In this document: in pieces, positions 22,840-25,356 of the stretch
How positions within the stretch are numbered: the first letter of the stretch is position 1
Layout: the number at the start of each line of letters is the position of its first letter
DNA from: Chitinophaga pinensis DSM 2588
GTDB taxonomy: Bacteria > Bacteroidota > Bacteroidia > Chitinophagales > Chitinophagaceae
Direction of reading: 5' to 3'
DNA: 64,000 nt
Assembly: GCF_000024005.1 (NCBI RefSeq)
Contig: NC_013132.1
Coordinates: 8,922,001 to 8,986,000, forward strand
Notes under the pieces: model-generated
Seen by the model: the letters and a program-made list of their open reading frames with translations, nothing else
Databases searched by the model: none
Told to the model about the DNA's origin: nothing
Made by a program: the position numbers and the translations under genes

Positions 22840-23095
22840 TTTTTTATGTTTGATGTGTGTGTGTTTGTCGTTATTGACGATGTAAAATTGCAACAAAGTC
22901 TATCGCCGGAAAATGGATACTCTTCCCTATGTCTTGTACATTTTTCCCCGGCAGGCCGTTTCTGTATCTATATTATATACCCGCACAAAGGCCATCACCC
23001 ACTTTTTTTTAAAAATCCCGGAAAAAATTTCTCCTGCGCAAAAAAAGTGCGCACATGCCTTCCAACTTTGTATCATCAAACAAAAACAAACGGTC

Positions 23096-24622
23096 ATGAG
23101 ATTCAACAAGCTCAAAACTATCAAACAAGTAGTCAACCATGCAGGAGCAGCGGCATACACCCTGACACCTGAAATGGAACTGTACAGTGCTGTAGTTACT
23201 GCTTCTCTGCAAGACCAGTTTTATGAGAAAAGCACAGAGAAGCTGGAACGTCTGCGTACACTGATCGCTAAAAATGATCCTGGATTCGTAGCAAGACTTG
23301 CAGTCTACACCAGGGAAAGGATGTATCTGCGTTCAGTACCAACGGTATTGACAGTGGAACTGGCTAAAGTGCACAAAGGAGACAACCTGGTAGGTAAACT
23401 GACAGGACGCGTTATCCAGCGGGCCGACGAGATTACAGAAATACTGGCCTACTATGCAGTGGCAAACGAAAGGAAAGAGACTAAAAAGCTCAATCACCTG
23501 AGTAAGCAGCTGCAAAAAGGACTCGCTGTTGCTTTCAACAAATTCGACGAATACCAGTTCGCTAAATATAACCGTAAGACGGATATCACCTTGAAAGATG
23601 CGCTGTTCATTGTACATCCGAAAGCAAAGGATGACGCACAGCAGGCACTGTTCAATAAGATAGTAGAAGATAACCTGGATACGCCTTATACATGGGAAAC
23701 TGCATTATCCGCAGCTGGTCAGGCGAAATACGATTCTGAATACGCTAAAAAAGAAGCTTTCAAATGGGTATGGACGGAACTGATAGAAAGCGGAAAACTG
23801 GGATATATGGCGGCATTGAGAAACGTGCGTAACATGCTTGATTACAATGTCGATACACAATACCTGAAGAAGGTATTTCAAATGCTGGCCGATAAAAAGG
23901 CTGTCATGAATGCAAAACAGTTGCCATTCCGTTACCTGTCTGCCTACAGAGAGATTAAGAATATCCGGCACGGTTATATCACCGAACTGAAAAGAGCACT
24001 GGAAAAAGCATTACAGACCAGCGTAGCACACCTGAAAGGATTTGACGAGTATACAAAGGTTGTCATCGCGTGCGACGTTTCCGGTTCCATGCAGCAACCA
24101 ATATCTGCAAAGAGCACCGTTTTACTGTATGACATCGGTCTCTTACTGGCCATGTTGTTACAACATAAATGTAAGCACGTCGTGACAGGTATGTTCGGTG
24201 ATTCCTGGAAAACAGTGAGTATGTCTCCGGATAATATTCTCGGCAACATCGATGAATTCTACAGACGAGAAGGTGAAGTGGGTTATTCCACGAATGGTTA
24301 CCTGGTGCTGGATGATCTGATCAATAAAAGATATGTAGCTGATAAGATTATGTTGTTTACCGACGGACAGTTGTGGGATAGCAATACGGGTAATACCAGT
24401 GCATCCAACAGCATGTCAGCTAAATGGACAAAATACAAGCAGATAGCGCCAAACGCAAAGCTTTACCTGTTCAATCTGGCGGGTTACAATACCGTACCGC
24501 TGGATGTGCGTCAGGATGATGTTTTCCTCATTGCGGGATGGAGTGACAAGATCTTCGGAGTCCTGGATGCGATTGACAAAGGAGGAGACGCCATCACTGA
24601 AATTGCCGGCCTTGCTTTATAG
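23096..24622 (+). CDS. rsr: Ro60 orthologue (TROVE domain plus von Willebrand A domain)
   Basis: From ATG at 23096 the protein has 508 residues; the extra frame upstream is rich in poor residues. The N-terminal 300 residues are all-helical TROVE repeats with the family signatures KLERLRTLIAKNDPGFVARLAVYTRERMYLRSVP, GYMAALRNVRNML and LPFRYLSAYREIKN. Residues 320-508 are a vWA domain with a complete MIDAS: DVSGSM (Asp327, Ser329, Ser331), the Thr in GYSTNGYL and Asp423 in FTDG. Ro60 forms a ring that binds misfolded RNA in its channel and a Y RNA on its rim. Four structured RNAs with Y-RNA and tRNA-mimic features follow within 60-650 bases on the same strand. No RtcB, RtcA or PNPase gene is nearby. 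A near-consensus promoter box (CAACTTTG, 23063-23070) precedes the start. Confidence 0.94.
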   Translation: MRFNKLKTIKQVVNHAGAAAYTLTPEMELYSAVVTASLQDQFYEKSTEKLERLRTLIAKNDPGFVARLAVYTRERMYLRSVPTVLTVELAKVHKGDNLVGKLTGRVIQRADEITEILAYYAVANERKETKKLNHLSKQLQKGLAVAFNKFDEYQFAKYNRKTDITLKDALFIVHPKAKDDAQQALFNKIVEDNLDTPYTWETALSAAGQAKYDSEYAKKEAFKWVWTELIESGKLGYMAALRNVRNMLDYNVDTQYLKKVFQMLADKKAVMNAKQLPFRYLSAYREIKNIRHGYITELKRALEKALQTSVAHLKGFDEYTKVVIACDVSGSMQQPISAKSTVLLYDIGLLLAMLLQHKCKHVVTGMFGDSWKTVSMSPDNILGNIDEFYRREGEVGYSTNGYLVLDDLINKRYVADKIMLFTDGQLWDSNTGNTSASNSMSAKWTKYKQIAPNAKLYLFNLAGYNTVPLDVRQDDVFLIAGWSDKIFGVLDAIDKGGDAITEIAGLAL

Positions 24623-24647
24623 CAGTTCATTATTGTTAACCTTATTC

Positions 24648-24676
24648 ATACATCCCTCCAAAAGGGAGGGATGTAT
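24648..24676 (+). terminator. Strong hairpin after the Ro60 gene
   Basis: ATACATCCCTCC (24648-24659) pairs perfectly with GGAGGGATGTAT (24665-24676), loop AAAAG. It lies 25 bases past the Ro60 stop and eight bases before the first tRNA-like RNA. No T tract follows, so it may be a processing site or stabilising structure rather than a terminator. Confidence 0.7.
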
Positions 24677-24683
24677 AATACCC

Positions 24684-24875
24684 GGCCCTGTAGCTTAAGC
24701 GGAAAAAGCCCGTGGAAAAATATTACCATGGAGTGTACGGATCATACCGTTGCCGGTACGCCTGGCAATGGTCAGAATTTACAGTGCACCGAAATCTGAA
24801 GTATCGAAAGTAGGGATGCGTATTTACAGTCGTACTGCCTGAAGGGGAATGCAGGTTCGAGTCCTGCCAGGGCTA
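24684..24875 (+). ncRNA. tRNA-like RNA with a 140-base insertion in place of the anticodon arm
   Basis: The ends form a tRNA: GGCCCTG (24684-24690) pairs with CAGGGCT (24868-24874, one G-U), then discriminator A. Next to it are TA, a D stem GCTT/AAGC (24693-24696, 24706-24709) with GG in its loop, and a perfect T arm GCAGG-TTCGAGT-CCTGC (24851-24867). Between D and T arms, where a tRNA has about 25 bases, lie 141. They include a hairpin CCGTGG/CCATGG (24710-24731) and an eight-pair hairpin CCGTTGCC/GGCAATGG. No anticodon loop is recognisable and no CCA is encoded. It is not a group I intron by size. I read it as a Ro60-linked tRNA mimic; the GTGTCGT motif of the next three RNAs is absent here. 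Confidence 0.65.
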
Positions 24876-24876
24876 C

Positions 24877-24972
24877 AAAACATAACGACGAGTGTCGTGG
24901 GTAAGTGTTACTTCGCTCTTTTAGGTAGAACACAAAGACACTTCCAGTAGTTACCTCTGTTGTTTATGTTTT
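24877..24972 (+). ncRNA. Y RNA-like RNA A (no tRNA module)
   Basis: The ends form a stem: AAAACATAA (24877-24885) with TTATGTTTT (24964-24972), then CGAC with GTTG after one bulged T. The 5' strand then has the shared motif GTGTCGT (24892-24898), mostly unpaired, followed by GGTAA paired with TTACC (24951-24955) and GTGT with ACAC. The apical part is a simple hairpin. The shape (long terminal stem, one-sided bulge near the ends, variable apical part) is that of a Y RNA, whose bulged stem binds Ro60. It is 96 bases long and has no T or D arm. Confidence 0.7.
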
Positions 24973-24980
24973 AAAATCTT

Positions 24981-25126
24981 AGAACGGGTGTCGTAGAGCA
25001 GTAATACATCGACTCCAATTCGACTAAATCTCTCACGGGGGTTGAAATCCCCCTCCGTCGAAAGGCGGGTGGCCGAGTGCATAGGCAGAGATCCAACAAC
25101 TTATTGTTCGAATATTACCCCGTTCT
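24981..25126 (+). ncRNA. Y RNA-like RNA B with permuted tRNA-like module
   Basis: Terminal stem AGAACGGG (24981-24988) pairs perfectly with CCCGTTCT (25119-25126). A 12-base bulge on the 5' strand holds TGTCGT. The inner stem GTAATA..TCGA (25001-25012) pairs with TCGA.TATTAC (25108-25118). Inside is a tRNA in permuted order: ATCTCT (25028-25033, anticodon-stem place), T arm GGGGG-TTGAAAT-CCCCC (25037-25053), acceptor stem TCCGTC/GGCGGG capped by a GAAA tetraloop (25054-25069), D arm GCC-GAGTGCATA-GGC (25072-25086) and AGAGAT (25087-25092) closing on ATCTCT. The D arm with TGGCCGAGTG resembles tRNA-Leu/Ser. The module fits the tRNA mimicry known for YrlA-type bacterial Y RNAs. Confidence 0.82.
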
Positions 25127-25129
25127 TAT

Positions 25130-25267
25130 AAAACAGGTGTCGTAGGAAAGCGTTACTTCGTTAATCTATGAGTCGGAGGTTCGAGCCCTCCTCTGTCTGA
25201 CATCGTCGACAGGTAGCTCAGTCGGTAGAGCATTAGAATGGTCGCTTCCAATTTTTTATCCTGTTTT
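25130..25267 (+). ncRNA. Y RNA-like RNA C with permuted tRNA-like module
   Basis: Terminal stem AAAACAGG (25130-25137) pairs perfectly with CCTGTTTT (25260-25267). The bulged motif GTGTCGT is at 25137-25143, and GGAA(A)GCG (25145-25152) pairs with CGCTTCC (25243-25249). Inside is a permuted tRNA: TCTA (25165-25168, anticodon-stem place, pairs with TAGA 25234-25237), T arm GGAGG-TTCGAGC-CCTCC (25175-25191), and acceptor stem TCTGTC/GACAGG (25192-25197, 25208-25213) capped by GAC-ATC-GTC. Then come TA and D arm GCTC-AGTCGGTA-GAGC (25216-25231). The T loop and D arm match ordinary tRNAs exactly. The U-rich 3' end (TTTTTATCTTTTT) may end transcription. Confidence 0.85.
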
Positions 25268-25327
25268 TATCTTTTTATATGCATGTGAATGCTTCGTAAA
25301 AGCTGTAGTTTTCATTCTCTGTTGACA

Positions 25328-25356
25328 GGAGAGAAATATCCATTTCTCTCCTTTTT
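25328..25356 (+). terminator. Rho-independent terminator after the RNA cluster
   Basis: GGAGAGAAAT (25328-25337) pairs perfectly with ATTTCTCTCC (25342-25351), four-base loop, then TTTTT. It is the only classical plus-strand terminator after the Ro60 gene, 60 bases past RNA C. It would end a transcript carrying all four RNAs. Confidence 0.85.

Follow-up and report, generated by a model that had tools for sequence, protein, structure and literature searches.

The window analysed here, a stretch of 64,000 nucleotides (nt) from Chitinophaga pinensis DSM 2588 (contig NC_013132.1, positions 8,922,001 to 8,986,000; the host genome is one contig of 9.1 Mb), encodes a Ro60 protein that is followed on the same strand by four structured RNAs, RNA1 to RNA4. 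Comparative sequence analysis identifies RNA2, RNA3 and RNA4 as Y-type RNAs that share a closing helix but differ in their heads; RNA1 is a separate, conserved RNA that resembles transfer RNA (tRNA). Arrays of this kind are the usual arrangement in the Ro60 loci surveyed below. The best reading, to which we give a probability of roughly 60%, is a stress-type Ro60 operon with multiple Y RNAs, joined by a new tRNA-like RNA, within an RNA-repair regulon. The Y RNAs are of a known kind, and their layout appears new.

Ro60 is a conserved human autoantigen; what is known of its role in bacteria comes from a handful of species that have one or two Y RNAs. Y RNAs attach to the outer face of the Ro60 ring, which they gate, and they can serve as tethers for PNPase; heads that mimic tRNA are recognised by tRNA enzymes. 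The best comparison for the present RNAs is YrlA, a tRNA-mimic bacterial Y RNA known beside rsr in Salmonella and others, whose module runs in the order T, acceptor, D and is a circular permutation of tRNA. At loci where one Ro60 has many distinct Y RNAs, it can be tested directly what the heads select. Chen et al. are said to speak, in a 2014 article in RNA, of species with more than one Y RNA.

The Ro60 locus

The Ro60 translation lies over the Pfam cut-off for TROVE (PF05731, 2.7e-27), and its C-terminus matches vWA_Ro60 (PF25045) at 5.6e-5 and 23.6 bits, under the cut-off of 27.7; the sequence DVSGSM in the translation we take to be a vWA-type motif. The closest solved chains, 9l5y and 9kop, are both TROVE-domain proteins (E about 4e-26). 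The four RNAs lie on the Ro60 strand, 62-646 nt past its stop codon, and the list of open reading frames (ORFs) contains no protein gene among them: the sole ORF of at least 60 amino acids (aa) that touches the RNAs (64 aa, 24504-24698) overlaps the end of Ro60 and the first 15 nt of RNA1. This is the layout described in the original prediction, which a model had made from the letters and ORFs of the window. Its further statements, that three of the RNAs close through terminal Y-like stems and that three of the four carry T and D arms, agree with what is reported below: the stems belong to RNA2-RNA4, and the arms occur in canonical order in RNA1 and in permuted order, T then D, in RNA3 and RNA4. 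The heading under which it placed them, four tRNA-mimic RNAs, fits RNA1, RNA3 and RNA4 but not RNA2, which has no tRNA module.

The window is without ARAGORN matches and without Rfam matches at gathering scores, and a sigma-70 and terminator scan of the region gave no more than chance, with two terminator-like sites found where 2.6 are expected. At the position of the hairpin between Ro60 and the RNAs (Table 1), several relatives show hairpins of different sequence when inspected by eye. Folding of single sequences gave modest z-scores (RNA1 -2.35, RNA2 -1.01, RNA3 -3.02, RNA4 -1.84) and was dropped as proof of structure, being too weak; the structures are proven by comparison instead.

Table 1. 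Features of the Ro60 locus and of related loci. G and L numbers are handles for genomes and loci
Feature	Position	Strand	Basis or remark
Operator-like inverted repeat TGCGCA-N7-TGCGCA	23035..23053	+	0 mismatches; 61 nt before Ro60 start codon
Ro60 (TROVE + vWA), 508 aa	23096..24622	+	Pfam and structure-chain matches
Hairpin between Ro60 and RNAs, T run absent behind it	24648..24676	+	by eye
RNA1, tRNA-like; order acceptor, D arm, extra domain, T arm	24684..24875	+	alignment, covariation
RNA1 inner part: anticodon-like hairpin, three-way-junction domain, variable-arm-like hairpin	24709..24849	+	model R2
RNA2, short Y-type RNA without tRNA module	24877..24972	+	R1 match 24884-24964, 37.5 bits, E 2.8e-6
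RNA3, Y-type with permuted tRNA module, D arm nearest tRNA-Cys	24980..25127	+	R1 73.6 bits, E 1.5e-14
RNA4, Y-type with permuted tRNA module, D arm nearest tRNA-Phe	25129..25268	+	R1 106.5 bits
Terminator-like hairpin and T run, 3' of array	25327..25352	+	terminator scan
Distant long Y units	G014:C1:6894130-6897888; G031:C1:734355-734688; G069:C1:5972335-5972476
Second tRNA-mimic RNA locus, own genome	L222:1525-1900 (G000:C1:696524 onward)		also L229, L233
Pfam-less protein behind repeat, own genome, 466 aa	L224:865-2265	-
Pfam-less protein behind repeat, own genome, 173 aa	L225:1728-2249	-
Pfam-less protein behind repeat, own genome, 533 aa	L227:1222-2823	-
Y units per own-genus locus			window 3, L020 6, L021 6, L022 7, L023 4, L024 1, L025 4, L026 2, L027 9, L028 1, L029 6, L030 3, L031 3, L032 2 (contig edge), L033 3, L034 2, L080-L083 4 each, L188 5, L189 5, L190 6, L191 5

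Y-type RNAs with one closing helix and different heads

RNA2, RNA3 and RNA4 have in common a closing helix of the Y type, whose structure was worked out on an alignment of 35 module-bearing Y units picked by hand. The helix contains one bulged U. Nine outer pairs were scored when the unit ends were chosen; the innermost pair, which was unscored, is U-A in 16 and C-G in 19 of the 35 units and is broken in none. The motif that marks a unit reads 5' GUG-YCGU ... CUUC and 3' UURCC. Across the alignment 88.4% of cells are paired, compensatory changes occur in 21 of the 24 tested pairs, and the covariation score is 0.565 compared with 0.127-0.180 for slid partners, which bears out, as does the covariation of RNA1, the claim of the original prediction that these are real structured RNAs. 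The long units run from a T arm through a loop-closed acceptor-like stem to a D arm, a circularly permuted tRNA. The T and D stems of this module covary in the alignment; the acceptor stem is visible in the folds of RNA3 and RNA4, where it was seen but not counted on the alignment. RNA2, being of the short kind, stands outside the 35 units, while RNA3 and RNA4 are both among the sequences behind the covariance model built from them (R1), so that their R1 scores are not independent.

The comparison set for the tRNA modules comprised 58 distinct ARAGORN tRNAs, from stretches covering 69 of 74 RF00005 matches. Within the window array the D arms differ, as listed in Table 1; the T arm of RNA4 is also nearest to tRNA-Phe, and that of RNA3 is a tie between Thr and Ser. 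An identity with a whole tRNA is not claimed for any module: the D arms clearly differ, but the best matches of the T arms are often ties or other tRNAs.

RNA4 matches the Rfam YrlA family (RF02553) at 33.8 bits (E 2.1e-5), below the gathering score of 69, and for RNA3 no YrlA match is listed at the loose Rfam threshold. Nine Ro60 loci of the own genus, Chitinophaga, gave no YrlA at gathering scores and three Rfam tRNA matches, namely one real tRNA-Glu and two that bridge neighbouring units (L022, L027); at loose thresholds, YrlA matches of 31.6-46.4 bits appeared in all four loci tested. Because the gathering threshold is missed wherever it was applied, we name the Y units YrlA-like. As with YrlA, they stand beside Ro60 and combine a closing stem with the permuted series of T arm, loop-closed acceptor-like stem and D arm; unlike YrlA, they have a closing motif of their own, occur as several different units per locus and include short units without a module. 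With the Y RNAs of animals and Deinococcus, as these are known to us, they share a variable head and a closing helix in which a nucleotide is bulged, but here most long units bear tRNA modules and several units stand beside the protein gene.

Arrays of distinct units across relatives

When 59 relatives were searched with the Ro60 protein as query, 16 own-genus loci in 15 genomes emerged, all with at least one unit that has the closing motif, along with a short fragment in another family. Over 23 loci R1 gave 79 matches, 78 of them at E<1e-4; one (L078, E 0.018) was set aside, and the 16 units of L080-L083 had not been used in building the model. Seven further loci yielded 33 matches, of which 21 (L188-L191) were kept and 12, all from L185-L187 and weak or partial, were set aside. 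The 24 own-genus Ro60 loci carry from one to nine Y units each (Table 1). Beyond the genus, TROVE is present in 24 of 296 Bacteroidota genomes, the own genome counted, and the 24 loci from the 23 other genomes include 21 with at least one R1 match and 19 with at least two (E<1e-3), a few of these matches being partial (e.g. L161, L165). L149, L160 and L164 gave no R1 match at this threshold; their Ro60 proteins are 23-30% identical to that of the window, and those of L161, L162, L163 and L165, which have matches, 22-31%. The covariance search across Bacteroidota Ro60 neighbourhoods that the original prediction had proposed thus finds the structure conserved in relatives, and the two or more units at 19 of the 24 other loci show that the layout is not confined to this locus, which leaves its interpretation only partly supported.

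The own-genus units number 99, of which 97 stand in multi-unit arrays, and 95 of these 97 resemble a unit of another genome more than any neighbour in their own array, a result made easier to reach by the close relatives in the set; two do not. At L023, whose Ro60 is 75% identical to that of the window, the best scores of the units are 0.33-0.60 elsewhere as against -0.06 to 0.14 within the array. The units of the window have relatives in L191, close ones for RNA2 (0.82) and RNA3 (0.85) and a looser one for RNA4 (0.58). There are two length classes, 69-93 nt (n=32, a T loop found by pattern in none) and 112-172 nt (n=67, a T loop in 63). Several different RNAs with different modules, short hairpin and permuted tRNA, do stand beside one Ro60, and the suggestion made earlier that one Ro60 has alternative RNAs at its disposal fits the retention of distinct paralogues.

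The same data bear on the simplest account of the array, that of an ordinary YrlA-type locus whose additional Y RNAs are redundant: all would gate and tether alike on Ro60, and their heads would differ by drift. It would explain the closing helix common to all units, the single adjacent unit at two own-genus loci (L024, L028) and the sub-threshold matches of several units to Rfam YrlA. Drift among redundant copies is, however, at odds with units that are kept distinct across species and not replaced by copies (a pattern that close relatives ease), with two separate length classes, and with the window array, in which no tandem repeats were found. We regard redundancy as unlikely, although it survives better than the other alternatives.

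The Y RNAs also keep company with Ro60 on the scale of whole genomes. Among the 48 own-genus genomes searched both for Ro60 and with R1, a full-length R1 match (E<=0.001) occurs in 21 of 21 with Ro60 and in 0 of 27 without; with related genomes treated as independent, Fisher's test gives 4.5e-14 for this association and 0.04 for that of RNA1 with Ro60. The genome-wide search applied stricter filters and scored 41 candidates per genome, so that weak matches may have been lost. Two Ro60-less genomes (G015, G021) show a weak and partial R1 match that falls in the tRNA-like portion and was left out of the Y RNA count, and in G007 one full-length but weak match lies at a WYL-SPFH locus instead of at Ro60.

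RNA1, a tRNA-like RNA in canonical order

RNA1 has an acceptor stem, a D arm and a T arm in the order of tRNA and of transfer-messenger RNA (tmRNA). It differs from both in that a conserved inner domain replaces the anticodon arm and variable region, and in that no conserved frame was seen. In an alignment of 11 sequences, six acceptor pairs and five T pairs are paired in 100% of cells and a seventh (first) acceptor pair in 6 of the 11; the D arm is present by eye. The hairpin at the anticodon position has a loop longer than a normal anticodon loop, and an extra domain of about 100 nt leads to a short hairpin resembling a class II variable arm, with the T arm after it. Altogether 99.0% of cells pair, a figure favoured by the derivation of the structure from the same alignment, and compensatory changes occur in 17 of 45 pairs as against 1-5 with slid partners. 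RNAalifold, run with three distant members added to the set, shows compensatory change in 26 of 42 pairs, among them 4 of the 6 that form the long-range helix closing off the inner domain. In the first alignment this domain reads as a three-way junction, the third arm of which, invariant there and drawn otherwise by RNAalifold, is unproven. The D half is nearest to tRNA-Arg in four of five sequences tested, that of the window being nearest to tRNA-Ile, and the T half is mixed.

Several known identities were considered for RNA1. The original prediction had listed it with the Y RNAs, but in the window it has no R1 match and the motif GUGYCGU...UURCC is not seen in its sequence; because the closing motif is absent and RNA1 occurs in genomes without Ro60, it is not to be counted as a Y RNA. 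A tmRNA was rejected on frame ends that differ among species (by eye), on a negative ARAGORN tmRNA search and on a best Rfam match of only E 0.43 (beta_tmRNA, 11.2 bits); with no better Rfam match than this, RNA1 would be a further non-coding RNA family. An intron-bearing tRNA was rejected since the normal anticodon loop is absent and the insert is conserved and structured, and searches for a whole cloverleaf with a 7-nt anticodon loop (ARAGORN and Rfam tRNA) were negative.

R2, the model of the inner part alone, finds RNA1 in 16 of 79 own-genus genomes, full-length in 15 and without the 5' half in G400, and across the phylum in 4 of 395 genomes, the own one and three of another family. Another search gave a match in G037 of only 29 bases, all in the T arm, which was set aside. 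Of the 16 copies in the own genus, 12 are located behind Ro60, and G399 has its Ro60 on a different contig. In G134, of the other family, RNA1 lies in the Ro60 neighbourhood past the array, with protein genes between. Ten protein neighbours of RNA1 genes (L078, L079, L142, L185, L186 and L187; L077 was not scanned) have no common Pfam family. RNA1 thus often neighbours the Ro60 system, yet does not depend on it.

RNA1 could be a mere processing element, its tRNA shape allowing RNase P and RNase Z to cleave the transcript of Ro60, which would release the Y RNAs; its end directly precedes RNA2, it lies behind Ro60 in most of the own-genus genomes that have it (12 of 16), and the G400 copy is truncated. 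Such a role would not call for the inner domain, which is conserved though not needed for cutting, nor for stand-alone copies in Ro60-less genomes, most with an upstream repeat of their own, and RNA1 is absent from most array-bearing Ro60 loci. We consider this explanation quite improbable.

Three further observations concern RNA1. G400 (L181, L191), the closest Ro60 relative at 93% identity, has lost the 5' half of RNA1 including the D arm and kept its Y RNAs. In G164 RNA1 stands beside 14 tRNA genes. An SPFH protein lies near RNA1 in G164 and also beside the second tRNA-mimic RNA described below.

A shared upstream repeat

Control of Ro60, its array, the stand-alone RNA1 genes, RtcB and Hen1 as one set is supported by a shared upstream repeat, which ties the Ro60 protein and its RNAs to the RtcB ligase and the Hen1 methyltransferase in one predicted RNA-repair response. 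With up to two mismatches, the inverted repeat before the Ro60 gene of the window recurs at -61 to -99 in 37 of 48 Ro60 loci (24 of 24 in the own genus, 13 of 24 elsewhere), and as a control in 60 of 1440 random windows of the same loci, part of which presumably overlap the real site. It also precedes five of the seven RNA1 genes that are not directly behind Ro60, by 45-50 nt in G002, G013, G035 and G160 and by 160 nt in G164. A pattern search of the own genome (up to one mismatch, two strands, palindromes counted twice) gave 28 matches as against 5 for the reversed pattern. Six further sites precede RtcB (PF01139, 5.3e-79), Hen1 (PF12623, 6.8e-111), a locus with a tRNA-mimic RNA and an SPFH gene, and three Pfam-less proteins, which are candidate unknown members of the RNA-repair regulon.

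At the second tRNA-mimic RNA locus, the repeat is followed by a conserved stretch, by two tandem T-acceptor-D modules (by eye) and, downstream, by SPFH, with a divergent WYL/WCX regulator. An RtcB-like gene and the order WYL-RNA-SPFH occur likewise in G007 and in G013, which has no Ro60; Pfam backs the WYL protein of G007 and the SPFH protein of G013, and the remainder was assigned by eye. In L029 a WYL/WCX regulator is divergent from Ro60 itself. The Salmonella rsr-yrlBA-rtcBA genes form an RNA-repair operon under RtcR. As there, Ro60, Y RNAs and RtcB would be under common control; unlike there, RtcB and Hen1 lie elsewhere in the genome, tied to Ro60 only by the upstream repeat, and the candidate regulator is of the WYL/WCX type.

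Proposed mechanism and its weighing

RNA damage would raise Ro60 and the array together. Ro60 would bind each Y RNA by the shared helix, a ring being loaded with one of the three, and the head, a short hairpin or a permuted tRNA mimic, may decide between mere gating of the ring and its delivery to a nuclease or an enzyme that handles tRNA. The short RNA2 would then gate, while RNA3 and RNA4 would add differing tRNA-shaped handles. RNA1, probably trimmed by tRNA enzymes, would mimic tRNA within the same response to RNA damage, as a sensor, a bait or a regulator and not as a tether of Ro60. A bolder version, which we offer as tentative, is that RNA1 founds a new class of tRNA-shaped regulatory RNA, in which a conserved three-way junction replaces the anticodon and variable region, which acts as a sensor or bait for repair enzymes or for agents that damage tRNA and which a WYL-type regulator switches on with Ro60, RtcB and Hen1, and that Bacteroidota Ro60 rings draw on a set of as many as nine Y RNAs in differing tRNA guises.

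A number of observations weigh against the reading of a multi-Y-RNA operon with RNA1 in an RNA-repair regulon. The inner helix of the Y units is weak, being paired in 65% of cells. Long Y units lie distant from Ro60 in G014, G031 and G069, where only a short unit stands beside the protein gene, so that adjacency to Ro60 is usual and not necessary. RNA1 occurs in five Ro60-less genomes, G002, G013 and G035 of the own genus and G160 and G164 of the other family. The upstream repeat is missing from 11 of the 48 Ro60 loci and was not found before RNA1 in G399 and G134. The six regulon sites, all with an A-rich spacer, were chosen by eye among the 28 matches, and three of the proteins behind them match no Pfam family; that the WYL protein binds the repeat we infer from its position only.

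An origin of the elements as tRNA genes in decay, or as the debris of a tRNA array next to Ro60, is hardly credible: the modules do resemble different tRNA D arms, predicted tRNA genes lie inside the arrays of L159 and L162, and two Rfam tRNA matches bridge neighbouring units (L022, L027), but compensatory changes run throughout, a covariation that already contradicts debris, and the elements occur only with Ro60 and in permuted order inside a common closing helix.

Further observations on individual arrays

Some Ro60 loci of the relatives have peculiarities of their own. Behind Ro60 at L159:3726-4338 (+), short Y units are interspersed with three predicted tRNAs (Met, Arg, Lys) whose acceptor ends are similar. 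In two array units at L162:6521-6844 (-), the Y stem seems to enclose a tRNA core that has canonical order and an anticodon arm (ARAGORN: Ser, Thr), which sets them apart from the permuted kind. G026 has a second, diverged Ro60 locus, and this adjoins the tmRNA gene (L034:8629-9003, -). L027 (G016; L018, L019) has a second, shorter TROVE-like frame of 427 aa at the same locus as its main Ro60, with the nine Y units around.

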